Shown here: piece by piece, positions 9,133 through 29,836 of the stretch | Layout of the letters: every line of letters starts with the position of its first letter | Numbering within the stretch: the stretch's first letter is position 1 | IMG/VR virus record: IMGVR_UViG_3300047546_003235 | Span: 1 to 45,130 of that record | Source: a virus | Reading direction: 5' to 3' (one strand) | DNA: 45,130 nt | Program-made: the position numbers and the translations under genes | The notes under the pieces: model-generated | The model's database searches: none | What the model was told of the DNA's origin: nothing | What the model saw: only the letters and a program-made list of their open reading frames with translations

Positions 9133-9344
9133 CAGATGTTTGGTTGAATGACAGTGGGCGCAGTTTGATAGAGGGCCTCAAGATGTTTGCTCAGGCAGAT
9201 CAGTGGGCACAGGAGCATTGCCAGAGTTATCGTGGTCATGAAGTGACTGATGTTTCGGATGTAAGCCTAGTGTATGATCATGTGGCCGGTTATAGTTTTG
9301 GCAACGAACAGGATGCCCTGATTTTCAGGCTACGCTGGCGATGA
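9129..9344 (+). CDS. F-x-L-R-W array protein 7
   Basis: A 71-residue protein, ATG 9129 in an ATGA overlap (ATG 9123 is an in-frame alternative). It has ADQWAQEHCQSYRGHEV as the first helix region and ends QDALIFRLRWR. The family Cys is displaced (W-A-Q-E-H-C). From here on every junction in the array is a 4-nt ATGA overlap. Confidence 0.7.
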   Translation: MTDVWLNDSGRSLIEGLKMFAQADQWAQEHCQSYRGHEVTDVSDVSLVYDHVAGYSFGNEQDALIFRLRWR

Positions 9345-9592
9345 AATACTGGAACAAAACACGGGAGGCCAGGAAGAGGACCTGGACGCAAGTTCAGTGG
9401 CGACCACACAACATGAATTTCTATACCATAGAAGTGAACATAGAAGAAATGAAGCGATGGTGCCAGCATCAACCGGGTGGTCGTTTCTGGTATTCGGAGC
9501 ACTGGGCTGATGATCATGATCCTGTCTATTACTGGACCTGGTGGTTTGAACGACCCAGTGATGCCACGACATTTACCCTGAGGTGGCTATGA
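9341..9592 (+). CDS. F-x-L-R-W array protein 8
   Basis: An 83-residue protein, ATG 9341 in an ATGA overlap. It contains IEEMKRWCQHQPGGRFWYSE, then PVYYWTWWFERPSDATTFTL and RWL. Its last codons CTG AGG TGG CTA TGA are the first in the array to use AGG for Arg, which creates GAGG 5 nt before the next ATG. Confidence 0.7.
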   Translation: MKYWNKTREARKRTWTQVQWRPHNMNFYTIEVNIEEMKRWCQHQPGGRFWYSEHWADDHDPVYYWTWWFERPSDATTFTLRWL

Positions 9593-9795
9593 GAGCATTG
9601 AACCGATCCATATGGCCCTATCGTGTGACCATTGACAGTGATATAAAAAAAGTCATTCACCCTATGGAAAAATGGCTACTGGATGAAGTGGGGCAGATCA
9701 CACAGGTCTGGACTGTGGTGTATCTGTATAATCACACTCATTTCTATTTTCGCCAGAGTGAACACGCCACCCACTTTACCTTGAGGTGGCTATGA
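9589..9795 (+). CDS. F-x-L-R-W array protein 9
   Basis: A 68-residue protein; ATG 9589 in an ATGA overlap is preferred to GTG 9583. It has MEKWLLDEVGQITQVWTVVY, then HFYFRQSEHATHFTLRWL. The first-helix Cys is absent (EKWLLDE). It ends with TTG AGG TGG CTA TGA, again placing a Shine-Dalgarno before the next start. Confidence 0.7.
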   Translation: MRALNRSIWPYRVTIDSDIKKVIHPMEKWLLDEVGQITQVWTVVYLYNHTHFYFRQSEHATHFTLRWL

Positions 9796-10037
9796 CTGTC
9801 ACACATCAAACCAACAGCCTGGGGCTGCAAGTGCCTGTGCTACACCGTGTGGTGTATGCCCGTGATCTGGAAATGCCAGCACAGTATCAGCGTAGTTATC
9901 AGGACCACTTGATTAGTGAATGGCTCCAGCAAAACTGCCGGCATCCTTACTATCACAGTCCTGGCTGGATGCGAGAAAAGTTCATACAATTTGAATGCGA
10001 CCAAGAAGCCATGCTGTTTTCGCTGAGGTGGGCATGA
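9792..10037 (+). CDS. F-x-L-R-W array protein 10
   Basis: An 81-residue protein, ATG 9792 in an ATGA overlap. It contains ISEWLQQNCRHPYYHSPGWM and ends CDQEAMLFSLRWA. The terminal codons CTG AGG TGG GCA TGA again carry GAGG 5 nt upstream of the next ATG. Function unknown. Confidence 0.7.
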   Translation: MTVTHQTNSLGLQVPVLHRVVYARDLEMPAQYQRSYQDHLISEWLQQNCRHPYYHSPGWMREKFIQFECDQEAMLFSLRWA

Positions 10038-10231
10038 GTAATTGGGTAGACATGCCTATGTATTGGCCCAGCAATGTGGATGAAAAGGCTTACGAGGCTT
10101 TGGAATGGGCCAAGAAAAATTGTCCTAGCTATATTACCAATGATGCTGTAGAAAAAGAAGGCAAATGGTATTATCGTTTCTTTTTTAGTCAAGAGAAAGA
10201 TGTTATGATTTTTATGTTGAGATGGGCATGA
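10034..10231 (+). CDS. F-x-L-R-W array protein 11
   Basis: A 65-residue protein, ATG 10034 in an ATGA overlap; an upstream in-frame extension from 9995 overlaps the previous gene and is rejected. It has YEALEWAKKNCPSYITNDAV, then YYRFFFSQEKDVMIFMLRWA. Its last Arg is AGA (TTG AGA TGG), so the embedded Shine-Dalgarno is weaker than in its neighbours. Confidence 0.7.
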   Translation: MSNWVDMPMYWPSNVDEKAYEALEWAKKNCPSYITNDAVEKEGKWYYRFFFSQEKDVMIFMLRWA

Positions 10232-10437
10232 AGTTCAGTAACATAGACAAAGCCACACGCAACAGCGCCTGGACTCGTGTTCGCATGCCCCCTGGCAGTG
10301 TTGTCAAGCGGTGGGAAATAAAAATCTGGCTACAGCAACAATCCAGCACTGGCGGTTACTACCACTACTATGGTGGTGACAGTTATTGGTTTGAACTGGC
10401 ACAGGATGCCGCCATGTTTGCGTTGAGGTGGGCATGA
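10228..10437 (+). CDS. F-x-L-R-W array protein 12
   Basis: A 69-residue protein, ATG 10228 in an ATGA overlap. It has VVKRWEIKIWLQQQSSTGGY, then DSYWFELAQDAAMFALRWA. It ends with TTG AGG TGG GCA TGA, with GAGG 5 nt from the next ATG. Function unknown. Confidence 0.7.
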   Translation: MKFSNIDKATRNSAWTRVRMPPGSVVKRWEIKIWLQQQSSTGGYYHYYGGDSYWFELAQDAAMFALRWA

Positions 10438-10841
10438 AATTGGTACGAGATATCCGGGCCGCCTACAAATTTTACCGTGATCGTGCCTTTCTAAAGCGAC
10501 ACGGTTGCGAAACCTGGCAGGAGTACAATAGAGCGTTTGACCCAGATCGTAATCCCAGAGCCCATCGCATACAGGATTACTATCATGGTTATCCACATGT
10601 TTATTGTTTTGAGAACTATCAGCATGACATATATTTCTGGGATGTGTACCAGGACGGCACTTATGTGATCAGCCGTTGGTGCGAACAGAATCTACAGGGT
10701 AAATGGCGTTTTGACGCACACCGGGTGTTGCGTGTCTGGAGCGGGCAGTGGGAATTCAACGATATAGGTGGCAGTGACTATATCTTTGGTGCCTTTCAAC
10801 TTGAACAGGATTTCATACATTTTCAGTTGAGGTGGGCATGA
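10434..10841 (+). CDS. F-x-L-R-W array protein 13 with an extra N-terminal domain
   Basis: A 135-residue protein, ATG 10434 in an ATGA overlap. The C-terminal 70 residues are a standard family member (VISRWCEQNLQGKWRFDAHR, then FIHFQLRWA). The first 65 are an additional domain (YKFYRDRAFLKRHG, TWQEYNRAFDPDRNPRAHRI, DYYHGYPHVYCFE) with a pattern I associate with separate phage hypotheticals. This is therefore a fusion and may show what the small domain partners with. Function unknown. Confidence 0.72.
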   Translation: MKLVRDIRAAYKFYRDRAFLKRHGCETWQEYNRAFDPDRNPRAHRIQDYYHGYPHVYCFENYQHDIYFWDVYQDGTYVISRWCEQNLQGKWRFDAHRVLRVWSGQWEFNDIGGSDYIFGAFQLEQDFIHFQLRWA

Positions 10842-11050
10842 TGGAGGACTGGAACTATGAGGTGCGAGTGGTACATGATGACTACTCCGTGATAGCCCAG
10901 TGGTGCGAACAGTATATAGGACCTTTCGGGCAGGATTGGTACAGACTGGGCAATGATATAGCCATGATGGTATTTGAACACAATGTGGGAACCATGTATT
11001 ATTTTCGCCAGGCAGAACACGCTGTGCTTTTTAGATTGATGTGGGCATGA
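10838..11050 (+). CDS. F-x-L-R-W array protein 14
   Basis: A 70-residue protein, ATG 10838 in an ATGA overlap. It contains YSVIAQWCEQYIGPFGQDWY, then YYFRQAEHAVLFRLMWA, where Arg of L-R-W is replaced by Met (TTG ATG TGG). This removes the embedded Shine-Dalgarno before the last array gene. Confidence 0.7.
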   Translation: MMEDWNYEVRVVHDDYSVIAQWCEQYIGPFGQDWYRLGNDIAMMVFEHNVGTMYYFRQAEHAVLFRLMWA

Positions 11051-11280
11051 CTGAAATATTTGACACACGCCGTAGATTTCAACTGGTAGACAGTGAGCTA
11101 CTGGGCTTTGAACCCAACCTCATAGTCATGACCAATGTGGGCTGGTGGGCAGATAATCTGGATACAGTGCTTGACTGGCTAAAGCAAAATTGTGCTGGCA
11201 CATATAAATGGGAGGGCATGACCCTGCAGTTCCAACTGGAGAGTGATGCCAGTGCTTTTTGTTTGTGCTGGTCAGACTGA
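11047..11280 (+). CDS. F-x-L-R-W array protein 15 (last)
   Basis: A 77-residue protein, ATG 11047 in an ATGA overlap. It has LDTVLDWLKQNCAGTYKWEG and ends ASAFCLCWSD, a degenerate form of the motif. No gene is coupled downstream, which fits relaxed constraint on the Arg codon. A 70-nt intergenic stretch then separates it from the convergent minus-strand island. That stretch holds GGCCGGCC and a repeated ATACCAGT but no convincing terminator. Confidence 0.68.
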   Translation: MTEIFDTRRRFQLVDSELLGFEPNLIVMTNVGWWADNLDTVLDWLKQNCAGTYKWEGMTLQFQLESDASAFCLCWSD

Positions 11281-11350: not shown

Positions 11351-11668
11351 TTAGCGTGGCTTGGCATCAGCCGGCCTTATGGTAAAATCCAATCCCCCAC
11401 CCAACACACAGGCACGGTCACCTTTGACAACCACCAGTGTCCAGGTTTTAGTCAAGGGGTTCACTGTGACAGCCATGGCACCGCCACCGCTTTCGGGAGC
11501 ACCCAGGCCAGCCACAATGGGTTCTTCTCCATAACCCTGCTTCAATGCCTCAAATACTTTGGCACTGTCATCGCACAGGGCACGATATATTTGTGTGTTG
11601 GTTTGTGACCAGGCGTTACTTTGACTGAGCCCTAAACACACCATCCCAATCAGGTGCCAAATTCGCAT
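11351..11668 (-). CDS. secreted protein of unknown function
   Basis: A 105-residue protein with an N-terminal signal peptide (LIGMVCLGLSQSNAWS then Q). The mature part contains YRALCDDSAKVFEALKQGYG, then GGGAMAVTVNPLTKTWTLVV and a Cys in DRACVLGGG; the two Cys could form a disulfide. The start overlaps the cyclase 3' end by 53 nt but has GAGGAG 7 nt upstream, which supports it. It is the promoter-distal gene of the minus-strand island. No family recognised. Confidence 0.6.
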   Translation of the reverse strand: MRIWHLIGMVCLGLSQSNAWSQTNTQIYRALCDDSAKVFEALKQGYGEEPIVAGLGAPESGGGAMAVTVNPLTKTWTLVVVKGDRACVLGGGLDFTIRPADAKPR

Positions 11669-12692
11669 TACGCATCTCCTCTATACGCTCCAACCACAAA
11701 TCATAATAATGATCCATGCCGCCGCCGAATTCACCCCGCAAATCATTCACAAGTTTTTCAGCAGTGGCCCACTTTTGCTCACGGTAGCACTGTAGCATCA
11801 GATCATGGTGCTCTTTGGCCACGGCCCACTTCACTCGCTCTACCTCAGTTTCGGGATTATAGAACACAGTGAAAATATTCACACCCTCTGTTTTGCCCTT
11901 GACTGCAATACAATCCAATTCAAGTGTGAAATATTCATCGCCAAGACGTTCAGCCGTAACAGGTCCCAACACAATTAGTACGCCATAGTTTTTACTCTGA
12001 CCCTCTAAACGACTAGCCAGATTAACAGCATCGCCCAGGCAAGTGTAATCAAACCTTTGATCGCTACCCATATTGCCCACCACGACCACGCCAGTGTTGA
12101 TACCAATGCCCATGCCAAATGGCGGCACACCCTCACTAGTAATTTCATTATTAAACCTTTCCAGATCACCCAGCATTTCCAGTGCTGCTTTGACAGCATC
12201 TTTACAATGCTTGGTATTGTCTACTGGAGCATTGAAAAAGAACATTATGGCATCCCCAATAAATTTGTCCAAGGTTCCGCCATTGGTCAAAATACTTTTA
12301 CACATGGCAGTCATGTACCTGTTCATTATGCTAGTCAACCCCTCTACATTTTTTCCATAATGTTCGCTTATAGATGTAAATCCTCGTACATCAGTAAATC
12401 CAATAGTTAGTTCTTGCTCAGAACCTCCCAGTTTCAACAATCCAGGATCTTTTACTAATTTGGCAACTAAATCTGGACTCATATAAGTCCCGAACTGTTT
12501 TTTTATCATCTGCTTTTGATTGAATTCGTGAATAAATTTCACAATGTTTACATGTAAGGCGACTATCAAAACAGCAATAATAGGAAATGTAGCATCAAAT
12601 AATATTTGATAATATTCATATGAATACCATGAACCAAGTAAAAAACCAAGAACTAAAACAACCGGTACTAAAAAACTCAATATCTTATTCAT
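11616..12692 (-). CDS. class III adenylate cyclase, C-terminal half of a split CHASE2 receptor
   Basis: A 358-residue protein: two membrane helices (about residues 4-24 and 33-52), a linker, then a class III cyclase domain (about 90-260). Metal ligands D101 (GFTDVRGFT) and D147 (FIGDAIM), adenine-selecting K143 (LDKFIGD) and D221 (LGDAVNLASR), and catalytic N224 and R228 are all present, so ATP to cAMP is the expected reaction. It lacks the CHASE2 sensor that normally precedes such helices. That sensor lies upstream at 13437-14441, beyond the endonuclease gene. Its ATG overlaps the endonuclease stop by 8 nt and lacks a Shine-Dalgarno, suggesting re-initiation. Confidence 0.88.
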   Translation of the reverse strand: MNKILSFLVPVVLVLGFLLGSWYSYEYYQILFDATFPIIAVLIVALHVNIVKFIHEFNQKQMIKKQFGTYMSPDLVAKLVKDPGLLKLGGSEQELTIGFTDVRGFTSISEHYGKNVEGLTSIMNRYMTAMCKSILTNGGTLDKFIGDAIMFFFNAPVDNTKHCKDAVKAALEMLGDLERFNNEITSEGVPPFGMGIGINTGVVVVGNMGSDQRFDYTCLGDAVNLASRLEGQSKNYGVLIVLGPVTAERLGDEYFTLELDCIAVKGKTEGVNIFTVFYNPETEVERVKWAVAKEHHDLMLQCYREQKWATAEKLVNDLRGEFGGGMDHYYDLWLERIEEMRNANLAPDWDGVFRAQSK

Positions 12693-13440
12693 ATCGCTGC
12701 GCCCATTTTTTATAATTTGCCAAATCCATTTCTTTCTTGTCTACAAGCCTACATATTTTCTTTTCTTTGGGTTTTCCTTTTGCTTTTGTAATACCTTTTT
12801 TTACACCCTTTTGCGGAGATGAAATCTCACCAGTATGCCATCTGGTATCTAATAAAGAGACAAGCCCTATATATTCACCAGTTTTATTGTCTTTGGCTGG
12901 GGCATGACCAGTGAACCTATTTTTGTGATGTTCTCTGCGGAGCGTATCATCCCATAAGTATTTCAATCTTTGTTGTTCTTTTTCTCTCCGTTCGTCACTA
13001 GTATTTCGTAGAGTTTTTTGTTTCTCTATTCCCAACAGACCAATTTCCTTCATATGATTTTTATTTTTCCTGATTCCGTACATGGGATTTTTGTCCCCTT
13101 TGATGGCATTTGAATTTTTTTGACGATGTTCAGGAGTTTGTGGTCCTCTTTTATTACCCTTAGGCCACCCGTCAATACCGTTTTCTATAATCTGATTAGC
13201 CCATTCAACTGATTCCACAATATTGTTTTGTATTGAAAAATTCATTGCAAATTTACTACATTCATCAATATTATCAAACTCCCATATTTCAATAGTAGAC
13301 ACATCATTGCCATGCTTTTTTATGTGATTTTTCCAGTATATTCCTGAGCCTGAATATTTTTCAGGATTTTGTGTTTGAGTTTTTCCGAAGTATTTTAGAC
13401 CTGTTCTATTATGCTGTTTTACATACAAATATACTTTCAC
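12685..13440 (-). CDS. GIY-YIG homing endonuclease (Seg-like) with NUMOD3 motif
   Basis: A 251-residue protein, GTG start. Residues 4-21 hold the GIY-YIG core in the form YLYV ... KYFGKT; a YSGSGIYW motif and a Glu-containing helix (NNIVESVEWANQ) follow. Near residues 98-125, GPQTPEHRQKNSNAIKGDKN then PMYGI is a NUMOD3 DNA-binding motif. The tail is lysine-rich. The gene is much richer in A+T than its neighbours, typical of a mobile gene. The start overlaps the CHASE2 stop (GTGA) behind a strong GGAGGAG; the stop overlaps the cyclase start. It thus sits in frame-compatible fashion inside a former single gene. Confidence 0.9.
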   Translation of the reverse strand: MKVYLYVKQHNRTGLKYFGKTQTQNPEKYSGSGIYWKNHIKKHGNDVSTIEIWEFDNIDECSKFAMNFSIQNNIVESVEWANQIIENGIDGWPKGNKRGPQTPEHRQKNSNAIKGDKNPMYGIRKNKNHMKEIGLLGIEKQKTLRNTSDERREKEQQRLKYLWDDTLRREHHKNRFTGHAPAKDNKTGEYIGLVSLLDTRWHTGEISSPQKGVKKGITKAKGKPKEKKICRLVDKKEMDLANYKKWAQRYE

Positions 13441-14441
13441 TTTCTCCTCCAGATTCCAAAAAATATTATTAATACGCCTGCCACCAGGATGGCCAGTATT
13501 TCTATTTCATCGGCCAGATTGTGGCGAACTATGGTTGTTTTGTTCAACATGGTGCCCATGACACTGGCCTGCAGTTCTTGTGGCCATACTTCGCCACGAC
13601 TGGTGGGTACAGGGTTTACTAGACCAGCAGCACCTAAACCCACCACCACAATACCACCACCAAAGTCAGCAGGCAGTGCAGCCAGACTATGTTGTGTTGG
13701 GCGCACACTGTAATCTATCCAGATGCGTCCTATACGATCTGTGATGATTTTGCCCTGACTGGGCACTCTAATAGCCTCAACTCCCAGGTCACTGAATTTG
13801 GCCTGCACACGGGCATCACCGCCAGCCACACGCAATGTTTCTAACGATAAAGCAGCATGCAAGGCACCATCACTGGTGGTTAGCAGCAGGGGCATACGGC
13901 GTACTACACCATCAACTTCGGGAAATGTATTGACAACGCCAGTACCGGCTGCACCTTCTTCTAGCACAGGCGTGTTAGCAATCATGCCGGGATACTCAAC
14001 CAACAAGCCTCTGGGGTCTGCACCCACTGTTTGCACAGGATTGGCAAATGCATTATTCTTGCCACGGGCTGCTGCCACATGCGGCAGAATCACGGGTATT
14101 TGCTCCAGGGTTTTAGCTAACACTCCATCCTTGCGGAATCTGTCGGCTTCGGGCATGAGCACATTGAATACCACTAGACCGGCATTTCTTTTGTATAAGT
14201 CCTGAATAATATCAGCGTACATATCACGGGGAAAGGGGAACTGCCCCAGCTTATCTAATGCTGCCTCATCAATATTCACCACATGCACAGGCACTGGCTT
14301 TTCAGGTTGACCAGTGATCAACTGGTCAAAAGAGCGTAATCTCACGCTTTCTACGAATGCTGGATCTAGCATTCTGATCACCAGCACAATGGCCAGAGTC
14401 AATAATGCTGTCCAGGGATTGAGTGCAATTTTCTTGAACAT
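13437..14441 (-). CDS. CHASE2 sensor domain protein, N-terminal half of a split receptor
   Basis: A 334-residue protein: a short cytoplasmic start, a membrane helix (about residues 11-25), a periplasmic CHASE2 domain (from SFDQLITGQPEKPVPVHVVN with NIDEAALDKLGQFPFPRDMY, through GRIWIDYSVRP and GGGIVVVGLGAAGL), then one membrane helix (LAILVAGVLIIFFGIW) and a stop at WRRK. CHASE2 domains are extracytoplasmic sensors, usually fused through three helices to a cyclase or kinase. Here only one of the three is present, the other two starting the cyclase gene. Its ligand is unknown. Confidence 0.85.
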   Translation of the reverse strand: MFKKIALNPWTALLTLAIVLVIRMLDPAFVESVRLRSFDQLITGQPEKPVPVHVVNIDEAALDKLGQFPFPRDMYADIIQDLYKRNAGLVVFNVLMPEADRFRKDGVLAKTLEQIPVILPHVAAARGKNNAFANPVQTVGADPRGLLVEYPGMIANTPVLEEGAAGTGVVNTFPEVDGVVRRMPLLLTTSDGALHAALSLETLRVAGGDARVQAKFSDLGVEAIRVPSQGKIITDRIGRIWIDYSVRPTQHSLAALPADFGGGIVVVGLGAAGLVNPVPTSRGEVWPQELQASVMGTMLNKTTIVRHNLADEIEILAILVAGVLIIFFGIWRRK

Positions 14442-14617: not shown

Positions 14618-15127
14618 TTAGAACCATAACCAGACTGCTTGGCTGACTAATACGGCTCCTATACCTCCCACGACTGTGCTAATCCAGAACATGGGCATGC
14701 TTACTGCCAGAATACTGGCTGTGAGCAACACGATGGCTATTTGTAGAATGCTGCCGCCCCAAGTAAACCAGGGTGAACGCTGTTTGGCTGCTTCGCGTTC
14801 GGCTTCCAGTGCCTTGGCTTTTTCCATGATTTCCTTTTTGTCTGCTTCCATGCGTCGGGCTTCGGCTTCAAATTTGGCCCGATTTTCAGGAATCTTGGCT
14901 TCCATGGCACTTGTCTCATACAGAACCTGGCGCACATTTTTGGCCTGATACCAACTCCACTGATTGTTGGCAGCAATGGTGTTGTTCATGATCTTGCTGC
15001 TGTTGCTACCGCCCAGCATGGTGTTGATGGCCAGTAGTGCAGCCAAGAACACGATGATGAATCCAGCTTTGTCTTTGATTTTTGCTTCACGTTCGCTACG
15101 TGATAGAGGTTTCCGTTCTTCTGACAT
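14618..15127 (-). CDS. DUF4337-like membrane protein
   Basis: A 169-residue protein. A charged N-terminus is followed by a helix (AGFIIVFLAALLAINTMLGG), then NNTIAANNQWSWYQAKNVRQ, a charged coiled coil (about residues 75-115), and two C-terminal helices (SILQIAIVLLTASILAVSMP, then FWISTVVGGIGAVLV). The W-x-x-Y-Q-A-K segment and helix layout are typical of DUF4337, a family of unknown function. AAGGAG precedes the ATG, with a late-type promoter motif just upstream. The terminator follows. Confidence 0.72.
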   Translation of the reverse strand: MSEERKPLSRSEREAKIKDKAGFIIVFLAALLAINTMLGGSNSSKIMNNTIAANNQWSWYQAKNVRQVLYETSAMEAKIPENRAKFEAEARRMEADKKEIMEKAKALEAEREAAKQRSPWFTWGGSILQIAIVLLTASILAVSMPMFWISTVVGGIGAVLVSQAVWLWF

Positions 15128-15139
15128 AAGTTCTCCTTG

Positions 15140-15147
15140 TATTTATG
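15140..15147 (-). promoter_or_regulatory. T4-type late promoter element
   Basis: Minus-strand CATAAATA followed by CAAGGAGAACTT and the ATG at 15127. It overlaps the stop of the upstream curlin-repeat gene and would give the DUF4337-like gene its own late transcript. Confidence 0.55.
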
Positions 15148-16609
15148 GTCCACCGCCCTGTGTGACGGTCACTGTACATCCTTGTAAGTTAGCACATTGT
15201 TGCGTGATGTTTATACTTTGTGCAGTATTACCTTGCTGGATAAGATTTACATTTGATGCGCCACCACTGTTTGTGAGATTTACTGTTGCTCGGTGGCTGG
15301 CGGCATCACGTTGACTGCCAGTAACATTATGATTGTTTCCAGTCAACGACAGGTCAAAATAATGATTGCCCGTGCCCTGTTGTGTCACATCAAATACATT
15401 TGTGTTTCCTGATAAGAAACCAAAGAATATTTTTTCGTTATTGCCTGTTTGTCTGAGGACGCCCTGGTTGCCAGAGCCTAGTATGTCAACATACATAAAC
15501 TGCCCAGATGCGGAGCCGCCAGAGTTGTTTTGCTTTGTTACTAATGTGTTGCCGTTGCCGGCGATGTTTATGCCAGCATAGTGACCGCCACTGTCTTGCG
15601 CATTAATTACACCGGTTGTCAGGTCTCGGGTCTGCCAGACAGTAAGTGAATTTGTGTTTCCTGTGATGGAAAACTCAATGAGATTTTTACCAGCAGCACT
15701 GCCTTGCTTGATGTTTACAGTGTTATTGTCTCCATCAATAACAGCATATGTTGTGCCACCCAGACCGGAAATCTTGTTGTAGTTACCTGATTGCTCAACA
15801 GTTACATTATTTCCACTGCTTCCTGTTTTTTCTTCAATGTATATATGATTGCCCAAAGAGATATTTGACACGCGATTTTTTGCAGCATTTCGCACGGTCA
15901 TTTGTGTATTAGTAATACCATCACTGACTGGCCAGCTAGGGGCAGCATCAGGATTAGTGGGACAGTTGTTAGTGCATCCAGCAGTATATGTCTGACTGGG
16001 GGTTGCTAGGCTAGTAAATCCACTGCCCCCGGGCAATGAGCATTCAGTGGGGGGTAAGCTGACATTACCGCACGTGCCTGCATATACTCCCAATTGAACG
16101 CTGTTACCGTCGCTGGTATTATCGCCATTTACATCAAATGACAGTGTATATACTACCCCGGCGGTCAAACGCACCGCTTGGTAGATGGCATCAAAACTGC
16201 CCACAGCACCGTCGTACCAAAGTCCACTCATCCAGGTTCCTGCAGCCGCCGGATATGTGCCATTTTGATAGGCCACACCCCAGGCTGTGGGAGCGTTGAT
16301 ATACTGGGTCCCGGCATTTGTTTGCACTTGGACAGTACCGCCAGTTGTCATATCGCCGTTAGTTAGTAGGTTGGTGCTATTGCCAGGCACAGTAACTCTG
16401 ATGTTATCCACGCGCCAATAGGCAGGATCCTGTCTGAATGCCAGCATGAAATAATTAGAGCCAGTTGTGCCAGCAGTGAAAGTAAATGTATAAGTTTGCC
16501 ATTGTCCGGGCACATTGTTTAGCACACGGCCGATGTACCCAGCCGGTAGAGTTTGTGCATTTACCATGCCAGCAAGAAACAAGAATAATGTGACAAATAA
16601 CTTTTTCAT
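15143..16609 (-). CDS. large secreted curlin-repeat protein with N-terminal beta domain
   Basis: A 488-residue protein with a signal peptide (KKLFVTLFLFLAGMVNAQ). Residues about 20-200 look like a galactose-binding or carbohydrate-binding-like beta domain (WQTYTFTFTAGTTGSNYFML, then YWRVDNIRVTVPG). From about 235 on there are curlin-like repeats with spaced Gly-Asn-x-Asn and Gln (GNNVTVEQSGNYNKISG, GNTNSLTVWQ, GSGNQGVLRQTGNNEKIFFG, GTGNHYFDLSLTGNNHN). Curlin repeats build extracellular amyloid. A fused binding domain would suit a fibre tip or adhesive subunit. It overlaps the FecR gene's stop (ATGA). Confidence 0.75.
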   Translation of the reverse strand: MKKLFVTLFLFLAGMVNAQTLPAGYIGRVLNNVPGQWQTYTFTFTAGTTGSNYFMLAFRQDPAYWRVDNIRVTVPGNSTNLLTNGDMTTGGTVQVQTNAGTQYINAPTAWGVAYQNGTYPAAAGTWMSGLWYDGAVGSFDAIYQAVRLTAGVVYTLSFDVNGDNTSDGNSVQLGVYAGTCGNVSLPPTECSLPGGSGFTSLATPSQTYTAGCTNNCPTNPDAAPSWPVSDGITNTQMTVRNAAKNRVSNISLGNHIYIEEKTGSSGNNVTVEQSGNYNKISGLGGTTYAVIDGDNNTVNIKQGSAAGKNLIEFSITGNTNSLTVWQTRDLTTGVINAQDSGGHYAGINIAGNGNTLVTKQNNSGGSASGQFMYVDILGSGNQGVLRQTGNNEKIFFGFLSGNTNVFDVTQQGTGNHYFDLSLTGNNHNVTGSQRDAASHRATVNLTNSGGASNVNLIQQGNTAQSINITQQCANLQGCTVTVTQGGGP

Positions 16610-17871
16610 CTGAAGTTCTGGTTGATTACAATTTGACCCTGAGCACGATTGCCAGCAAAGTTATAACTGGTGGTCTGCATGTCTTGGGTCACAATTACAT
16701 TGACCTGTGTGTTTATGGGCAATGTGATATTGGTATAGTTGCGACTATTGTTGGCCAGTCTTTCATACTGCCAGCCCACTTGTTGTGTCTCAGCACGATC
16801 ACGCCAGAGTTTCTTGACATATGGGTTATCGTTGTCGGAGGTGGCAGTTACAGTGGCAGGAACCGGTGCTGGAGCAGGCTCAGGTTCTTTGGCGCTTTGT
16901 GCTACAGTCACAACACTTACTGCATCATCTATTTTGCTGGCCAAATCAGTTTCTACTTTGACTTCAGCTACAGCAGTTGTGGTTTTTTCTTCTGCTACTG
17001 CTTCACTAGTAGAACTGGCAGCGGCGGTGCTGGCTGCTGCACGGGCCACTACTCGGCGATTGGCTGTGCTAGATTTTTTATCAGCAGCCACTTGTTGTTC
17101 TTGACTTTCGTTGCCGTCGTTTTTATCTTCTTTGGCATCACTTTTGGCCTGGCGAGTAACACCAGTGCTGGCTGCAGCCTGTCTAGCAGCCGCAACCAAT
17201 CCTGCACCACTCATGGTTCTGGGCGGTGTAATCTGTAAGTTGTTGCCCACTGGTGTGTTGAACAAGTTCACAGTGATGGGCGGTGTTGGTGGTTGACCTG
17301 CACTTTCTACCAGTGTGGCCTGATAGGGTCTGGTTAGTTTGACCTGATTGGGCCCGCTTTCTACATCAATGGCACCACTGCCACATATCAAGCCCTTGAC
17401 TGCACTGGTTTCCCAGTCACATGTGGGCATCAGAATCACCATGCTGCCACCAGTTTCGTTTACACTCATGACGAAATCAGTGCCACGAACAGCAATGGCC
17501 GCTGTGGGTGTTTTGATGTTGACTGCTTTGGGGTCTTTGGCTATTGCGCCACTGACATAACGAACTGTACCAGCCGCTGCCTTCAGTCCCAGTTTGCCTG
17601 CTCGGGTGTTGGGATCGTACACAAAGTCATCAATCACAAGGCTACTGTGTTCGGTAACACTAACTTGCGTGTCGTCCTTAAACACAATTTTGACCCGGCC
17701 GTTCTTGGTTTCAACCTTATCGTTCTGTTCTACAACGGTGCCTTTGCTGACTGCGATGGTCTCTTTGCCACGCTTGATAGTGGCAAGACCACTATGCTCT
17801 GTGACTGAGCCTATGTTGGCCAGTACTGGGCCAGCCAGTACCAGCCAGATCAACGCCAGCAAGTGCTTCAA
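16606..17871 (-). CDS. secreted FecR-domain protein
   Basis: A 421-residue protein; TTG start at 17871 with GGAG 6 nt upstream. Signal peptide (LLALIWLVLAGPVLA), then a FecR domain (about residues 20-200; GSVTEHSGLATIKRG, FKDDTQVSVTEHSSLVIDDF, PTAAIAVRGTDFVM). Next comes a long low-complexity linker rich in Ala, Thr, Lys and Glu. The C-terminus (YNFAGNRAQGQIVINQNFR) resembles a single curlin-type repeat. FecR domains occur in periplasmic signal or structural proteins and are often neighbours of CHASE2 cyclases. Here the domain may sense or organise curlin-like subunits; that link is inferred. Confidence 0.8.
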   Translation of the reverse strand: MKHLLALIWLVLAGPVLANIGSVTEHSGLATIKRGKETIAVSKGTVVEQNDKVETKNGRVKIVFKDDTQVSVTEHSSLVIDDFVYDPNTRAGKLGLKAAAGTVRYVSGAIAKDPKAVNIKTPTAAIAVRGTDFVMSVNETGGSMVILMPTCDWETSAVKGLICGSGAIDVESGPNQVKLTRPYQATLVESAGQPPTPPITVNLFNTPVGNNLQITPPRTMSGAGLVAAARQAAASTGVTRQAKSDAKEDKNDGNESQEQQVAADKKSSTANRRVVARAAASTAAASSTSEAVAEEKTTTAVAEVKVETDLASKIDDAVSVVTVAQSAKEPEPAPAPVPATVTATSDNDNPYVKKLWRDRAETQQVGWQYERLANNSRNYTNITLPINTQVNVIVTQDMQTTSYNFAGNRAQGQIVINQNFR

Positions 17872-17883
17872 CTCACACTCCAG

Positions 17884-18672
17884 TTAGTTCTTTTGTGTGA
17901 TGTTGAAAGTACCGCCTGTGCTAACACTCTTGATGTTCAGGACATTATCAACAGTGCCAGTCTGAGCCACAGTAAACTTAGAGCCAGTGCCAGTCTGATC
18001 AATCCAGATGCTGCTGCCACTGCTGCCAGTACTGCGCTGATTCAGATTGAATTCGTTGTTGTCACCAGCCACCATCAGAGTTTGACTGTGCTTGTTACCA
18101 ATGGCATCAATAATGAACTTGTTGCCGTTACCAGTCACATTGACTGCGCTGCGCAGATCATCACCAGTGCCACGGAACTGGAACTCGTTGTTGTTGCCAG
18201 TGAACTTCCAGTTCAAGTCAGCATTCTTACAGCCTGTTAGTGCTGGGCTACCAGTGCTGGCATTGCCGTATCCGCAAGCTGCATCCACTTTGTTGCCATC
18301 ACCAATCTGTTGCACAGTCACAGTGGCACCCACGCTGGCGCCAGTTGTGGGGTTCACCACTTCCAGGTTGATTTCGTTGTTGTTGCCAATTTGGCGTGTA
18401 ATGATTTTCTGGTCGGCACCGCGTAGATATATTGGACGAGCAGCACTACCTGCTTTGTTGCCAGTGCCATCTTGTGTCATGTTCACATCAGGATTGTTGC
18501 CGCTCTGATCAATAAAGATGCGGTTGGTGGTAGCAGTGGCCAATGCCGCAGTGGCATTGGGACTCACATTCACAGTGGCTGGCACTGTGGGTGCAGTTGG
18601 TGCAGTCACAGCAGTTTGTGCAAACGCTGGCGCAGCCATGGCTACAAGCATTGCTAATAATGTTTTTTTCAT
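17884..18672 (-). CDS. curlin-repeat protein (CsgA/CsgB-like)
   Basis: A 262-residue protein with a signal peptide (KKTLLAMLVAMAAPAFAQ), then a Thr/Pro/Ala-rich segment and about seven degenerate repeats containing G-N-x-N or G-x-G-N-K plus Gln (IFIDQSGNNPDVNMTQDGTG, RQIGNNNEINLEV, VQQIGDGNKVD, SIWIDQTGTGSKFTV). It ends FNITQKN. This is the pattern of amyloid curlin subunits exported by CsgG. It is longer than CsgA (about 150 residues). It starts in an ATGA overlap with csgG-like, so exporter and substrate are co-translated. Confidence 0.78.
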   Translation of the reverse strand: MKKTLLAMLVAMAAPAFAQTAVTAPTAPTVPATVNVSPNATAALATATTNRIFIDQSGNNPDVNMTQDGTGNKAGSAARPIYLRGADQKIITRQIGNNNEINLEVVNPTTGASVGATVTVQQIGDGNKVDAACGYGNASTGSPALTGCKNADLNWKFTGNNNEFQFRGTGDDLRSAVNVTGNGNKFIIDAIGNKHSQTLMVAGDNNEFNLNQRSTGSSGSSIWIDQTGTGSKFTVAQTGTVDNVLNIKSVSTGGTFNITQKN

Positions 18673-19505
18673 TTTTTACTCCCGGGCTTAGAGGCCTCTT
18701 TTTTATCTGGCGTCCGAAACTTCCATAGTCCCTGACGCTCTCCCTTTTGTATCAACTCTGCCACAGCGGTTTCTATGGCACTGCGAAGTGCATAGTTGCC
18801 GGGTTCGTTGTATGTTTGGCTACTATCAAACTCAAAAGCCTTGGTAGCCTGATTGAAGAACCTCAGGGCAGTGACGCCATCTGAGGTGCTCAATATATCT
18901 TTCTCCACAGTCACTGTGGTCAGTACTTCGCCAGTTTGTACGCTTACCAAACGAAGGTTAATCACAACTAAATCCTGTGTGTATTGTGTGTATGGACCGA
19001 TGCCCAACCAGCGAGCACCAGTACCACCCGTCAGTGTATGACTGTTATAGTCTATGATGCCGCCTTCAATCAGCACACCTGCCAGTGTCATGGGTGGCAA
19101 CATTTTGGCCTTGTCACCGTCGTAGATTTCTCTAGTTTGACGAATCATTTGACGCTCTTTGAGCAGGTTGTCCAGACCCACGCGCTCAACGACTGTAAAC
19201 CATTGACGATTGCCCACATCCATCAGGCTCTTGATCAAGTATGCATCAGCACCCTGTGTGACTGCACTGCTAAAACTACTCAGAGTGGTGCTGGGCTTGC
19301 GCTGACCTGTCAGGTCCTTGAAGCCATAGACTGCCACTGTGATGGGTGCACCTTCTGGCGCAGGCACATTTACAAATGCTGGGCTAATGTTCTCGCTCAC
19401 CCGGGCTTCACGACCAGGCTCAACTGTGTCAGTGGGGCGGATGGCAGCGCAACCAGATAACGCAGCCACTGCCAGGGCTGCTAAACTTATTTTCAACTTA
19501 CGCAT
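18669..19505 (-). CDS. csgG: CsgG-like curli secretion lipoprotein
   Basis: A 278-residue protein; ATG 19505 (a TTG at 19517 lies inside csgF). The lipobox LSGC (Cys19) gives an outer-membrane lipoprotein. The body follows CsgG: VAVYGFKDLTGQRKPSTTLS, then SFSSAVTQGADAYLIKSL, WFTVVERVGLDNLLKERQMI, a GGIIDYNSHTLTGGTGARWL segment, and DLVVINLRLVSVQTGEVLTT. CsgG forms the nonameric pore that exports curlin. Length matches E. coli CsgG (277). Genes for CsgE, CsgD and CsgC are not seen, so the phage may rely on the host or form a reduced pore. Confidence 0.9.
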   Translation of the reverse strand: MRKLKISLAALAVAALSGCAAIRPTDTVEPGREARVSENISPAFVNVPAPEGAPITVAVYGFKDLTGQRKPSTTLSSFSSAVTQGADAYLIKSLMDVGNRQWFTVVERVGLDNLLKERQMIRQTREIYDGDKAKMLPPMTLAGVLIEGGIIDYNSHTLTGGTGARWLGIGPYTQYTQDLVVINLRLVSVQTGEVLTTVTVEKDILSTSDGVTALRFFNQATKAFEFDSSQTYNEPGNYALRSAIETAVAELIQKGERQGLWKFRTPDKKEASKPGSKK

Positions 19506-19506
19506 A

Positions 19507-19989
19507 TCAGAATCCAAAACTTGCTAGAGGAACTTTTACTGTGGTCACAGTACCAGCCTTGTCTACCACAGTCAACGTGACTTCTTTGTCGCTCTTGACC
19601 CAGGTAATAGTGTTGCCGTCCAGCGTGAAAACGCCACTAGTTGGGTTTACACAGCCGGGTATGGCTGCCCCATCTGCGCTGGCGCAACGATTCTGAAACA
19701 GATTGTTGCTCAATTGAGTTGCTAACTGAGCGTATACCTGACTCTGAAACAGTGCCATGAAACGAGCCAGGGGTGTGTTCTGTGCAGCGGCTTCTGCTGC
19801 GGCTGCTTCGCTTTTCTTTTGACTTTCTATTGCGTCTTTGCGTGATTTCTCTATACTATCAATAGTCAGTGCGTGGCTGCTCCAGCCTGCCCCGCTGAAC
19901 GCAGGATTCTTGAACTGTTGTACAAGTTGTGCTTGTACATTAGAGCCCAGCACCAATAGACCTGATAGGACCACTGTGCGTAATTTCAT
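19507..19989 (-). CDS. csgF: CsgF-like curli assembly protein
   Basis: A 160-residue protein with a signal peptide ending in VQAQ. The mature N-terminus LVQQFKNPAFSGAGWSSHAL matches the CsgF signature that plugs the CsgG pore (N-P-x-F-x-G). A helical middle and a small C-terminal beta region with two Cys (QNRCASADGAAIPGC) follow. CsgF caps CsgG and couples subunit export to nucleation. It is the first gene of the operon, with GGGAG before the ATG. Its stop lies 1 nt before the csgG start. Confidence 0.85.
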   Translation of the reverse strand: MKLRTVVLSGLLVLGSNVQAQLVQQFKNPAFSGAGWSSHALTIDSIEKSRKDAIESQKKSEAAAAEAAAQNTPLARFMALFQSQVYAQLATQLSNNLFQNRCASADGAAIPGCVNPTSGVFTLDGNTITWVKSDKEVTLTVVDKAGTVTTVKVPLASFGF

Positions 19990-25138: not shown

Positions 25139-28100
25139 ATGACCACAAGAATAACCGGCACCAACATCACTGATGGCAGCATCGTGGGTAGCGACATTGC
25201 TGCCAACACCATCACCACCAGCAATCTGAACAGTTCAGTAATCAGTCAGTTGAACACTGCGCCCACAATTACTCAAATACAGATCACCAACAGCAGTTAT
25301 ACAGTACTGGACGACACGGCGGTGGCCAGTACCGGTGGGTACATAAAAATAACCGGCACCAACTTCACTGCTGGATCACAAGTGGTCATAGGCAGTGTCG
25401 CAGCCACCAGCGTGGGCTTTGTGAGCAGTACGGTGTTGAATGTGCAGGTGCCAGCACAGGCCGCCGGCACATATATTGTGTATGTGACCACTAACACTGG
25501 TAGTGTAGCCATTCTGGTGAATGGCTTGACCTATAGCGGAACTCCCACATGGGTCACCGGCAGTACTTTAGCCTCAGGTGTAGTAGATACAGCCATCAGC
25601 ATACAATTGAGCGCCACAGGTGACGCACCAGTAACTTATGCACTGCAGGCCGGCAGTAGTTTGCCAGCAGGTCTGACACTGACCAGCGGTGGTTTGTTGA
25701 GCGGTACTATAACTGGCATCACTGTACAAACAACCTATAACTTTACCATTGAAGCCATAGATGCTGAAGCACAGGAAAGTCCCCGGGCTTTCAGTATTAC
25801 CATAGCTGTAAATGATGAATACTTTGCATATGTCACCAGCCTTTTAAGTGCTGCTGGCCCAGCCAGCACCTTCGTCACAGATGCTAGTGCCAATGCATTT
25901 GCTGTGACTGTAAATGGTGACGCCCGACCCAACAATTTTAATCCCTTTCAGGGCACAGATTACAGTGTGTTCTTTGATGGCACTGGTGATTACATAGACA
26001 TAGCCGCCAGTGCAGCACAGGATCTGGGCACCAGCGATTTCACATATGAATGTTTCTGGTACACAACAACCTTGAGTTCGCGGCAGGCTGTATTCTGTGC
26101 GGCTCAGGATTACTGGTTTGGCATTGATTATCAGGCTGATGGCAAGGGTCTGGGACTCTGGGCCAGTGCCTCAGGATCCAGCTGGAACATCATAAATTCT
26201 GACGGTGGTGGCAACGGTATCACTAGTGTCAATCCGGTGCTGGGAACCTGGAATCACATAGCAGTGTCACGCACTGGAGGCTCATGGGCCATGTGGTTGA
26301 ACGGCACACGCATCTTGAACCTGTCTGGTCTCACTGCCAGCGTGGCCAGCAAGACCGCTGTGGCCAAACGCATAGGTACCTGGGCAGAAGCATATGGTTT
26401 TCCTATAAACGGTTACATCAGCAACGCCCGACTGGTGATCGGAAGCCTGATTTACAATCCAGCCTCCAGCACCATCACTGTGCCCACCAGTGCTCTGACT
26501 GCTGTGTCAAACACTGTGATATTGACCTGTCAGAGCAGCAGATTCCGTGACAACAGCACCAACAATTTTGCCATCACCAGAAATGGTGACGCCCGAATAG
26601 CTGGTTTCCCACCATTCACGGCCAGTAGCAGTTATGCCACCTACGGCAGCGGATATTTTGATGGCACTGGTGATTACTTGAGTCTGGCATATAATGCAGC
26701 TTTTAATTTAGGTACCGGGTCGTTCACATGGGAGTCATGGATATATCCCACAAATATATCTGGCATTGACGGCATTTATGCAACAACAGGCGGCTCAGGT
26801 GCCAATCCCAAATTTGTCATACATTTAAATGCAGGAACTCCCAGTATTCACTACAATGGGTTAACTGGTGGTTCTGATATATATACAACTGCAACATCAG
26901 CGGTACCCTTGAATGCATGGACTCACTTGGCTTTTGTAAGAAACAGCACAACGTGGACATGGTATATTAACGGCACAGCAGCAGGTACTGGAAGTAACAG
27001 CACAGACATTACATTTACCAGTCAACCCACATATGTTGGTTACGGGGGCGAAGCATATTTCACGGAATTTAACGGGTATATTTCAAATACCAGATTGGTT
27101 AAGGGTACTGCTGTGTATACCTCAAGCTTCACGCCCAGCACCACACCACTCACAGCCATTGCAAATACTAGCTTATTGACACTACAAGCTAACCAGCCCA
27201 ACAACAACAGCATGTTCTTGGACGACAGCGGCAACAACCTGTTGTTGACCCGCAATGGTAACGCCACACAGGGCAGTTTCAACCCCTATACTGGCGGTTA
27301 TTCAATGTATACCAATGGCAGCAATAGCTATGGCTATTATGCTTACAACAGCAACCGAGCATTGGGCACTGGTGATTTCAGTGTGGAGTGTTGGGTATAT
27401 GTTGTTAGCCAGCCGGTGAGTTATACTCGTATCTGGGGTCATCAGGGCTCATGGGGCCAACCAGGCAATATTGGCCTGGAACTAGCCTTTGACACTGTTG
27501 ATAGTCAAATGATATTTCTCATAGCCGGCAATAGTCAGACATATTATTCTGCCTCAGTAAGCACAACTGCCAGTGACTGGAAAAATCGTTGGATTCACGT
27601 TTTGGTGACCAGACAAAGCGGTACACTCAGAGCATTTCTAAATGGTGTGCTGAAATCTGCCACTGCAGGTGCCACCACAAATATCAATGGCGGATTGAGT
27701 ACGGCCTTTGGTACACAAGCAAACCTGACTCCTGACTATACTGAACAGTACATCAGCAACTTTCGTATGTGTGTGGGCAGTGTGCCCACCAGTTATCAAA
27801 CATCTAGCACAACCCCCGGGACCACTGTATTCGCTACACCCACATCACCCTTGACTCCCACCAGTCAGGGTGCCACAAATGTGCGTTTACTGGCATTCCA
27901 GAACAGCAGTTATATTGACAACAGCCCCCTGAACTCTACTCTGTTAACAGCCAACACTCCACTATTACAAAGATTCAGTCCCTTTTCTCCTCAAACGCCA
28001 TACACCGCCACCAGTTACAGTGTTAGTTTTGATGGTTCGGGAGATTACATAGATGTTGTAAATTCATCCACATGCTCAAATTTTGGCACTGGAGATTTTA

Positions 28101-29836
28101 CAGTTGAGGGATGGTTTTACTTTGCATCTGTGGCGCAGTCTATATTAGTAGACTTTAGAACCGGTCCCAGTGATGTGGCTGGAAGTATTTACAATAGTGG
28201 CACGAGCATAGCCTGGTATGTGCTGGGTGCCGACAGAATCATTGGTGGCACATTGCAGACTGGTCAATGGTATCACATTGCGTTGTCAAGGTCCGGCACC
28301 AGCACCAAACTATTCCTGAATGGCACACAAGTGGGCAGTACCTATACAGATACCAACAATTATGTGGGTAATACCAATAGACCACGTTGGGGGCACCTGG
28401 GGGATGGCACTGGAACCTTACCTTTTACTGGCCTCATGAGTAATCTCAGAATAGTCAAGGGCACCGCAGTTTATACTGCCAACTTCACTCCACCCAGTGC
28501 ACCACTCACAGCCATTGCCAACACCAGTTTGTTGACATGCCAAAATTCAACTATAATTGACAACAGCGTCAATAACTTCACCATAACTGCCAGTGGTAAC
28601 GCTACACCCAAAATAACCAATCCATTCGGGTATACCAGCGCGACTCCTGCCGCCTACGCACCCTCCACATATAGTGGTAGTGCCTATTTTGACGGCAACG
28701 GTGATTCAGTAAGTCTGGCAAGTAACACATTGCTGAACTGGGGTACCAGCAACTTTACCATTGAGTTCTGGGCCTATGATGATGGTTCCAGTGTCAATTA
28801 TCCTGGCATTTTGAGCACAGTCACAGGCTGGAGCGCAGGCAGTATCAGCATTCGCTACAATAATACCGGTCTGGCCGGGAAGTTCAGTGTACACTGGAAC
28901 CCAGCCGGTGATCCCTTCATGGCCAGTGCCAGCACTTTCCCCAGTCGTGCCTGGCACCATGTGGCCCTGACACGCTCAGGCAACACATTCACTATGTATG
29001 TGAACGGCACAGTGCAGGCCACTGGCACCAGCAGCAACAACTGGGACCTGAGTTATGGCGGCACTAGCATAGGCTACAGTGTCTGGGACGGTGCTCAAGG
29101 ATACTACAAAGGCTACGTCAGTGATTTGCGCCTGATTCGCGGTCAAGTGTTGTACACTGGACCATTTGTACCGCCCACAGCACCTTTGACGGCAACCGCC
29201 AACACGGTGATGTTGAACAACATGACTGGTGCTGGCATTTATGACAGTGCCATGGCCGGCAATTATGAATCCTTTGGCAATAGCAGTATTAGCACTAGTA
29301 TAAAAAAATACGGCAATACCAGCATGTCGTTTGATGGCTCAGGAGATTATCTGGCAAATCCCAATAATTTCACTCTGGATTTTAATGCGGGTGCCTTTAC
29401 AGTAGAGGCCTGGGTGTATTTAAACAACACATCAAGCACAAAAGCCATCGTGTGGGGTAGAGGCAATAATTCATTTGGATTGCGCATAGGTCAAGGCTAT
29501 CTGGGAAATGTCAATGGCTTGAACATTGTCAGAGTGGGTGTGGCGGATTTGGAATATTGTGCGTTTACATTTGCCACAAACACCTGGTATCACGTTGCCG
29601 TGGTCAGAAGTGGCACCACAATTTACTTCTTTGTAAACGGAGTACAACAGACTACCCTAGGCAGTGGGGCTGGCTCATATAACTATGCCAATACAACAAC
29701 CGGGTTTTATGTTGGCTGCAATGAAAACAATCTTGAGCAATTTGCTGGTTATATAGACGATTTGAGAGTTACTACTGGCGTTGCCCGTTATACCAGCAAT
29801 TTTACACCTCCCGCAGGGCCATTCATACAGTTCTAA
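25139..29836 (+). CDS. giant LamG-module virion protein 1
   Basis: A 1,565-residue protein. The N-terminus (TGTNITDGSIVGSDIAANTI) resembles tail-fibre attachment segments. Next comes an IPT/TIG-like Ig domain (about residues 45-130), an Ig-like putative domain (about 140-225), then six concanavalin A/LamG-type modules, each opening with a form of 'FDGxGDY' and 'FTxExWxY' (for example FDGTGDYLSLAYNAAF). The modules are joined by near-repeats such as RLVKGTAVYTSSFTPSTTPL, followed by LTAIANTSLL. LamG modules bind sugars, so this is probably a host-surface or virion-decoration adhesin. Paralogue of the next gene. Confidence 0.85.
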   Translation: MTTRITGTNITDGSIVGSDIAANTITTSNLNSSVISQLNTAPTITQIQITNSSYTVLDDTAVASTGGYIKITGTNFTAGSQVVIGSVAATSVGFVSSTVLNVQVPAQAAGTYIVYVTTNTGSVAILVNGLTYSGTPTWVTGSTLASGVVDTAISIQLSATGDAPVTYALQAGSSLPAGLTLTSGGLLSGTITGITVQTTYNFTIEAIDAEAQESPRAFSITIAVNDEYFAYVTSLLSAAGPASTFVTDASANAFAVTVNGDARPNNFNPFQGTDYSVFFDGTGDYIDIAASAAQDLGTSDFTYECFWYTTTLSSRQAVFCAAQDYWFGIDYQADGKGLGLWASASGSSWNIINSDGGGNGITSVNPVLGTWNHIAVSRTGGSWAMWLNGTRILNLSGLTASVASKTAVAKRIGTWAEAYGFPINGYISNARLVIGSLIYNPASSTITVPTSALTAVSNTVILTCQSSRFRDNSTNNFAITRNGDARIAGFPPFTASSSYATYGSGYFDGTGDYLSLAYNAAFNLGTGSFTWESWIYPTNISGIDGIYATTGGSGANPKFVIHLNAGTPSIHYNGLTGGSDIYTTATSAVPLNAWTHLAFVRNSTTWTWYINGTAAGTGSNSTDITFTSQPTYVGYGGEAYFTEFNGYISNTRLVKGTAVYTSSFTPSTTPLTAIANTSLLTLQANQPNNNSMFLDDSGNNLLLTRNGNATQGSFNPYTGGYSMYTNGSNSYGYYAYNSNRALGTGDFSVECWVYVVSQPVSYTRIWGHQGSWGQPGNIGLELAFDTVDSQMIFLIAGNSQTYYSASVSTTASDWKNRWIHVLVTRQSGTLRAFLNGVLKSATAGATTNINGGLSTAFGTQANLTPDYTEQYISNFRMCVGSVPTSYQTSSTTPGTTVFATPTSPLTPTSQGATNVRLLAFQNSSYIDNSPLNSTLLTANTPLLQRFSPFSPQTPYTATSYSVSFDGSGDYIDVVNSSTCSNFGTGDFTVEGWFYFASVAQSILVDFRTGPSDVAGSIYNSGTSIAWYVLGADRIIGGTLQTGQWYHIALSRSGTSTKLFLNGTQVGSTYTDTNNYVGNTNRPRWGHLGDGTGTLPFTGLMSNLRIVKGTAVYTANFTPPSAPLTAIANTSLLTCQNSTIIDNSVNNFTITASGNATPKITNPFGYTSATPAAYAPSTYSGSAYFDGNGDSVSLASNTLLNWGTSNFTIEFWAYDDGSSVNYPGILSTVTGWSAGSISIRYNNTGLAGKFSVHWNPAGDPFMASASTFPSRAWHHVALTRSGNTFTMYVNGTVQATGTSSNNWDLSYGGTSIGYSVWDGAQGYYKGYVSDLRLIRGQVLYTGPFVPPTAPLTATANTVMLNNMTGAGIYDSAMAGNYESFGNSSISTSIKKYGNTSMSFDGSGDYLANPNNFTLDFNAGAFTVEAWVYLNNTSSTKAIVWGRGNNSFGLRIGQGYLGNVNGLNIVRVGVADLEYCAFTFATNTWYHVAVVRSGTTIYFFVNGVQQTTLGSGAGSYNYANTTTGFYVGCNENNLEQFAGYIDDLRVTTGVARYTSNFTPPAGPFIQF

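Follow-up and report, generated by a model that had tools for sequence, protein, structure and literature searches.

The 45,130-base virus record IMGVR_UViG_3300047546_003235 (hereafter, the window) carries a CHASE2-class III adenylate cyclase receptor gene in two parts, with the gene of a free-standing GIY-YIG/NUMOD3 homing endonuclease at the joint between them. We consider it likely, with a probability of roughly 0.7, that this is a split allele that has spread by homing and co-conversion and whose two chains most likely re-associate. According to this model, the endonuclease would cut unsplit alleles in co-infecting phages, and repair would copy the endonuclease and its flanks (tens of nucleotides (nt) of CHASE2 and ~450-480 nt of cyclase) into the recipient, which would thereby acquire the endonuclease and the split at once. 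The overlapping cistrons would be translated in series into chain 1, with the sensor between two helices, and chain 2, a two-helix hairpin followed by the cyclase; in the membrane, the two chains would most likely come together again as a functional receptor. The activity of the endonuclease, its cut site in the unsplit cyclase gene, the re-association of the chains and the cyclase activity are all predicted components of this model.

A receptor gene divided at a membrane-helix turn

The three minus-strand open reading frames (ORFs), their frames and the two stop/start overlaps described in the original prediction were confirmed at every coordinate (Table 1). Its reading of the outer two ORFs as halves of one receptor is correct, because PHROG 35576, an unsplit phage family of 681 amino acids (aa), is matched by the first ORF over positions 2-339 and by the last over 356-681; both halves also keep complete domains, as it had claimed, with matches to PF05226 and PF00211. 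The CHASE2 chain consists of an N-terminal helix, the periplasmic CHASE2 domain and the first post-sensor helix, and ends in ...FFGIWRRK-stop; its closest unsplit relative is L002 (66%; numbers such as L002 and L112 are labels of the compared relatives). The cyclase chain contains two membrane helices, a signalling helix and a class III cyclase domain, in which the catalytic motifs FTDVRGFT, LDKFIGD and YTCLGDAVNLASR are present by comparison with the family invariants. The full architecture of a CHASE2-class III cyclase (a helix, CHASE2, three helices, and a cyclase with its catalytic residues) is thus found in the window, delivered by two chains.

Scanning of viral contigs revealed 325 loci with sensor and cyclase in one ORF, and removal of duplicates left 185 distinct full-length phage proteins in which the receptor is unsplit. 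Among GTDB genomes, 80 of the 80 best matches, nearly all labelled Alphaproteobacteria, cross the joint in a single open frame, and the cultured phages with an unsplit relative are Pelagibacter phage HTVC008M and Methylophilales phage Melnitz. These counts bear out the proposal that a normally single-chain receptor is divided here. Alignment with 24 unsplit relatives places the joint between ...IFLMRW and TYVGIA... of the unsplit proteins, where the window has ...IFFGIW followed by RRK-stop, and then MN followed by KILSF.... Residues missing relative to unsplit homologues, which would have pointed to a split unrelated to the insertion, were looked for in this alignment; no receptor residue is lost at the joint and five are added (RRK and MN), so the split is clean. 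In an AlphaFold2 model of the unsplit L002 protein (mean predicted local distance difference test score, pLDDT, 82), the joint falls between W330 and T331, in the turn that links helix 309-327 to helix 331-356; the split is thereby assigned to the turn that follows the first post-sensor membrane helix and precedes the second. The new chain ends carry RRK, RRR or RKR and MNK, consistent with the positive-inside rule; going by the usual topology of the family, the turn is presumably cytoplasmic.

Table 1. Features of the split receptor locus and its operon in the window
Feature	Position	Strand	Evidence or remark
CHASE2 sensor chain, 334 aa	13437..14441	-	ORF; PF05226 2e-35; PHROG 35576 positions 2-339
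GIY-YIG/NUMOD3 free-standing homing endonuclease, 251 aa, GTG start	12685..13440	-	NUMOD3; PHROG 314/5123
Cyclase chain, 358 aa	11616..12692	-	ORF; PF00211 1.2e-18; PHROG 35576 positions 356-681
GTGA stop/start overlap, CHASE2 to endonuclease	13437..13440	-	
ATGAATAA stop/start overlap, endonuclease to cyclase	12685..12692	-	Identical 8 nt at the L200 endonuclease/cyclase joint
GGAGGAG, Shine-Dalgarno-like, within the W-R-R codons before the endonuclease GTG	13444..13450	-	GGAGG before the cyclase ATG in L112
Net gain of 762 nt over unsplit genes: RRK-stop on the CHASE2 chain, endonuclease, MN on the cyclase chain	12687..13448	-	Alignment, 24 unsplit relatives
Putative co-converted block: end of first helix, endonuclease, cyclase codons 1 to ~155; AT-rich, split-allele ancestry; borders approximate	12228..13470	-	GC/GC3, divergence z-scores, similarity profile, trees
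Upstream operon genes: csgF, csgG, curlin repeat, FecR, curlin-like, DUF4337	14618..19989	-	Pfam; same order in Melnitz, HTVC008M

Split alleles share a joint region in different backgrounds

A search with the first 165 cyclase residues identified L112, and searches from L112 identified L192 and L200. Together with the window this gives four split alleles, all broken at one joint with three different contents. The occupant is a type A GIY-YIG endonuclease in the window and L192 (57% identical to each other) and a different GIY-YIG endonuclease in L200 (PF01541, 1.6e-9), where the ATGAATAA overlap is the same as in the window. The joint of L112 has no endonuclease: its CHASE2 chain ends in ...FFAVWRRR-stop, its cyclase chain starts with MNKHLSY, and the two genes overlap by the 4 nt ATGA. 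A profile of the split cyclase start detected no split alleles beyond these four. L036, flagged as split by a script, proved to be an artefact: the match overruns, by a few codons, the stop that lies upstream of one undivided ORF.

Phylogenetic trees of separate partitions give different pictures for the joint region and for the rest of the receptor. In the CHASE2 tree the four split alleles are scattered among unsplit proteins, and in the tree of cyclase residues 165/170-358 they are scattered as well; a single clade is rejected in both cases by the approximately unbiased (AU) test (p 2e-5 and 2e-46, respectively). In the tree of cyclase residues 3-155 all four fall into a single clade (support 100/97), which is placed within the unsplit L194/L195/L197 group and persists when the long window branch is removed. 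Within this clade the window and L192, both with a type A endonuclease, are sisters (97/92) and L112 groups with L200 (91/76), while L144 and L002 stay with their unsplit kin. The residue Asn49 occurs in all four split alleles and in 0 of the 185 unsplit proteins, and Pro10 in all four and in one of the 185. The trees indicate that the sensors and C-terminal cyclases of the four alleles represent four different unsplit backgrounds, and that their joint regions share ancestry. By this comparison, the split version has moved as a block into no fewer than two different viruses, probably four, whose other relatives have an undivided gene.

A near-isogenic pair shows the two states of the gene side by side. 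Over its first 2506 nt, the contig of L192 (L350) shares 97.7% identity with three unsplit contigs, and L144 is its near-isogenic unsplit partner. The identity to the unsplit contigs ends 70 nt before the CHASE2 stop, is absent across the endonuclease, stays low to cyclase codon ~151 and is back to ~100% at ATGGCTTTCTGGAATGCTCCT, near codon 152, with a mosaic further downstream. The difference between L192 and L144 is one replaced block of ~1.24 kb, comprised of 70 nt of CHASE2, the endonuclease and ~455 nt of the cyclase. Because L144 retains its own relatives in the joint-region tree, L192 is the recombinant, and the comparison indicates that endonuclease and split arrived together in an otherwise unsplit gene. 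Homing by a free-standing endonuclease is expected to leave such a block: resection that starts from a cut at some distance results in co-conversion of the flanks, and co-conversion over long stretches from remote cut sites is an established finding for free-standing endonucleases of phages (PMC2988022). On evolutionary evidence, from the trees and the L192/L144 pair, we thus found transfer into endonuclease-free alleles with co-conversion.

In the window itself, the 762-nt insert has a GC content of 34.5%, as compared with 49.4% in CHASE2 and 48.2% in the whole window, in agreement with the earlier description of the insertion as A+T-rich. That description had missed that the AT-rich stretch continues through cyclase codon ~155 (33.1%, then 46.2%; Fisher test on GC at third codon positions (GC3), p 0.006 and 0.0015); no such dip is seen in unsplit relatives. 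The CHASE2 gene and the distal part of the cyclase resemble the unsplit L002/L116/L114, and from the joint to cyclase codon ~155-166 the divergence from this group exceeds, in several of the intervals compared, the divergence within it (z-scores to -5). The AT-rich, diverged tract of the window thus stops where the replaced block of L192 does. These features suggest a co-converted block in the window (Table 1), by analogy with the exact borders in L192/L144.

Identity of the endonuclease

The window endonuclease contains NUMOD3 (1.8e-4; 21.8 bits against a cut-off of 20.4) and matches PHROGs 314 and 5123, both homing endonucleases, the latter GIY-YIG. Residues Y6, Y17, G19 and E76 are kept in both endonuclease types, that of the window and L192 (type A) and that of L200. 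The N-terminal domain has a predicted beta-beta-alpha-beta-alpha fold, whose best PDB match is the catalytic domain of I-TevI (probability 0.99, with a weak E-value of 0.057). From these motifs and the predicted fold we assign to the protein a GIY-YIG catalytic domain and a NUMOD3 motif. Its relatives are common in phages, some of them near unsplit cyclases; only that of L192 lies in the joint.

Origin of the split

Another order of events, to which we give somewhat less than an even chance, is that the split came first. A small indel in the helix turn would have produced two ATGA-overlapping cistrons, as in L112, and endonucleases would have invaded the joint later, type A in one event and a second GIY-YIG in another; the split would then have spread with their help. 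The original prediction had named relatives with two genes and no endonuclease as a sign that the split predates the insertion or is unrelated to it; one split allele, L112, is of this kind, and the different GIY-YIG gene of L200 means that two endonucleases are found at one joint. In L112 a strong GGAGG precedes the cyclase ATG, and in the window this element now serves the endonuclease, while the cyclase start is weak; the duplex energies are -9.3 kcal/mol for the window endonuclease and the L112 cyclase and -2.4 kcal/mol for the window cyclase. This distribution would fit insertion of an endonuclease between two cistrons joined as in L112; a published parallel with the same ambiguity is gene 43 of phages 25 and 44RR (PMC2988022). 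However, L112 lies inside the split clade, grouped with the endonuclease-bearing L200, so that loss of the endonuclease is equally parsimonious, and a split without endonuclease has no evident drive into several backgrounds.

The origin envisaged originally, in which an undivided L002-like gene was split on the entry of the window endonuclease, is quite improbable. It accounts for a CHASE2 gene and cyclase residues 165-358 of the unsplit L002/L116/L114 kind, relative to which the net change is one insertion, but not for cyclase residues 3-155, which are AT-rich, not L002-like, and share with the other split alleles both their ancestry and derived residues found in 0 or 1 of the 185 unsplit proteins. 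The claim that an endonuclease splits this receptor gene stands in so far as the two came together in L192 relative to L144; the part that fell is a simple jump into the intact gene of this phage, the joint region having common ancestry with three split alleles. Removal of the endonuclease from RNA or protein, as an intron or intein that leaves one chain, has a negligible chance of being correct. Such endonucleases are common in introns and the CHASE2 and cyclase genes of the window are in the same frame, but the 762-nt insert is filled by the endonuclease ORF, whose frame differs from that of either neighbour, the CHASE2-to-cyclase frame varies among split alleles, and the stop/start of L112 leaves nothing to splice. 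An Rfam intron search, at the gathering threshold and then at E-values up to 10, gave no credible match, and a group I intron core was not found. An intein or a read-through fusion is excluded by the frames, since the endonuclease has a start and a stop codon to itself and is read in a different frame.

Several observations weigh against spread of the split allele by homing and co-conversion with a working two-chain product. The L192 contig is a 4.3-kb metagenome assembly, mosaic past the right border of the block, and this border lies within a conserved stretch; a near-isogenic unsplit counterpart was found for neither L112 nor L200. When cyclase residues 61-155 are tested alone, the four split alleles are not grouped (p 0.048, with long branches), and their shared ancestry is therefore claimed mainly from residues 3-60 and from the 3-155 block as a whole; later exchange further into the cyclase, beyond the first 60 residues, is possible. 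The split of L112 persists without an endonuclease, which is thus not required to keep it, and the window cyclase start has a weak ribosome site. The type A endonuclease of the window misses the Pfam threshold for GIY-YIG (PF01541), which that of L200 reaches, and no equivalent of the catalytic arginine of the family was identified in it.

Probable function of the two chains as a receptor

All eight half-genes of the four split lineages are open, with domains and catalytic motifs intact; the cyclase frame of L192 is open up to the contig end. The ratio of nonsynonymous to synonymous differences (pN/pS) between split alleles is 0.13-0.5, with 0.13-0.26 for cyclase residues 61-155, which is only a coarse sign of selection because synonymous sites are saturated. 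Overlapping starts and ribosome sites are kept. Because the CHASE2-to-cyclase frames of the four alleles differ (0, 2, 0 and 1), translation of the cyclase must be initiated separately. Purifying selection and intact domains argue that the two chains form a working receptor, for which we see about two chances in three. The reverse, that the split ruined the receptor and left remnants of a dispensable gene, open by chance, would fit the faster evolution of the window joint region as compared with unsplit relatives. It is unlikely given eight open half-genes with their domains and motifs, these pN/pS values and the conserved starts and ribosome sites.

A more speculative idea, with a small though not trivial chance of being correct, is that the split receptor is a mobile regulatory allele. 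Separate translation of sensor and enzyme would make their ratio, and the cyclic AMP (cAMP) signal in the infected cell, tunable; the allele would be moved by the endonuclease of the joint and kept after its loss, as in L112.

Comparison with known systems

Cyclases of Sinorhizobium meliloti combine a CHASE2 sensor with a class III cyclase and act in cAMP signalling. These adenylate/guanylate cyclases (PMC13001267) are chromosomal, and the likeness drawn here is one of architecture.

Among phage genes, nrdA, gene 43 and topoisomerase are known examples of genes in pieces through homing endonucleases (PMC2988022), and mitochondrial cox2 has been proposed as another (PMC5374615). In Aeromonas phage Aeh1, as recounted in later papers, a free-standing endonuclease, MobE, divides nrdA into complementary cistrons whose two chains form a working enzyme (Friedrich et al. 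2007, via PMC10448857, PMC2988022). In these accounts the endonuclease is of the HNH type and the target a soluble, nearly essential enzyme, whereas in the window a GIY-YIG endonuclease divides a membrane signalling receptor; relative to Aeh1 as described there, the receptor adds four split alleles in different backgrounds and a before/after pair. Gene 43 of phages 25 and 44RR, with seg43, is likewise split with an endonuclease in one phage and without it in another, and its polarity is undecided; 44RR differs in having a noncoding spacer in the joint, in place of the 4-nt overlap of L112, and a DNA polymerase as target (PMC2988022). The T4 topoisomerase genes 39/60 with MobA also link an endonuclease insertion to a gene in pieces, but the product is a soluble enzyme and the endonuclease HNH (PMC2988022). 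A likeness in a membrane protein is the mitochondrial cox2 of Campsomeris, made as two complementary chains, with a homing-nuclease mechanism proposed for the putative nuclease qnu; it differs in its animal mitochondrial location, a 3-kb spacer, a product that is not a receptor, and transfer between genomes not shown there (PMC5374615).

We found no paper on a split signalling receptor, and the earlier statement that no such case is known agrees with this search. What appears to be new is the target, the position at a helix turn, the three occupants of one joint, and the direct sequence evidence of a split allele moving between backgrounds. Whether endonuclease-made splits are dead ends or can spread was hard to see before. 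With one joint in four backgrounds, three occupants of which one is empty, and a pair of alleles that shows the gene before and after the replacement with exact borders, it becomes feasible to test how the events were ordered, how far co-conversion reached and what becomes of a gene once it is split. A signal receptor of the membrane is also an uncommon target. It is cut at a helix turn, a place where membrane proteins may withstand a break, and it belongs to a phage curli/FecR/cyclase module.

Operon context and neighbouring genes

The split cyclase is the last gene of the window operon csgF-csgG-curlin-FecR-curlin-(DUF4337)-cyclase, whose curli-like gene set is complete and includes two curlin-repeat proteins. 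A phage type VIII secretion module, normally ended by an unsplit cyclase, has been described (PMC9599517). The csgF-csgG-curlin-FecR-curlin-cyclase order is the same in the known phage modules (PMC9599517; HTVC008M; Melnitz, PMC9004378), where the cyclase is the unsplit homologue; the split and the endonuclease are unreported there, and the CHASE2 sensor is unmentioned in PMC9599517. In the window an extra DUF4337 gene follows the second curlin gene and precedes the split cyclase; the Melnitz and HTVC008M operons lack it.

Homing endonuclease genes were also observed directly downstream of unsplit CHASE2-cyclases, namely HNH with NUMOD3 in L026 (7074-7625), a similar NUMOD3 region in L063 (7304-7585), and GIY-YIG in L032 (7078-7773) and L294 (5044-5757). 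The C-terminal parts of these downstream endonucleases are alike (48% for L032 vs L026), as if nuclease domains had been swapped on one DNA-binding tail. On the other side, relatives of the window endonuclease lie ~1 kb upstream of the unsplit receptor gene in some relatives; in L473 (2944-3567; also L470, L472, L474, L476 and L478) a related GIY-YIG gene is separated from the start of the unsplit CHASE2-cyclase by one glycosyltransferase-like gene. With endonuclease genes both downstream and upstream of unsplit cyclases, the receptor gene is a repeated neighbour of homing endonucleases, an arrangement that resembles endonuclease islands (PMC10448857).

Three other plus-strand regions of the window deserve mention. 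Positions 9297-11280 contain ~8 tandem small ORFs of 70-137 aa, most of which end in a shared ...F.LRWA/L motif at the stop codon; this array has 7 copies of a 48-nt repeat, 60-73% alike, and most of its ORFs overlap the next start as GTGGGCATGA or similar. A 1565-aa protein (25139-29836) with at least six laminin-G/concanavalin-like lectin domains is probably a receptor-binding or tail protein. A 681-aa protein (38277-40322) has a putative amidoligase domain (PF12224, 3e-7), which is unusual in a phage.

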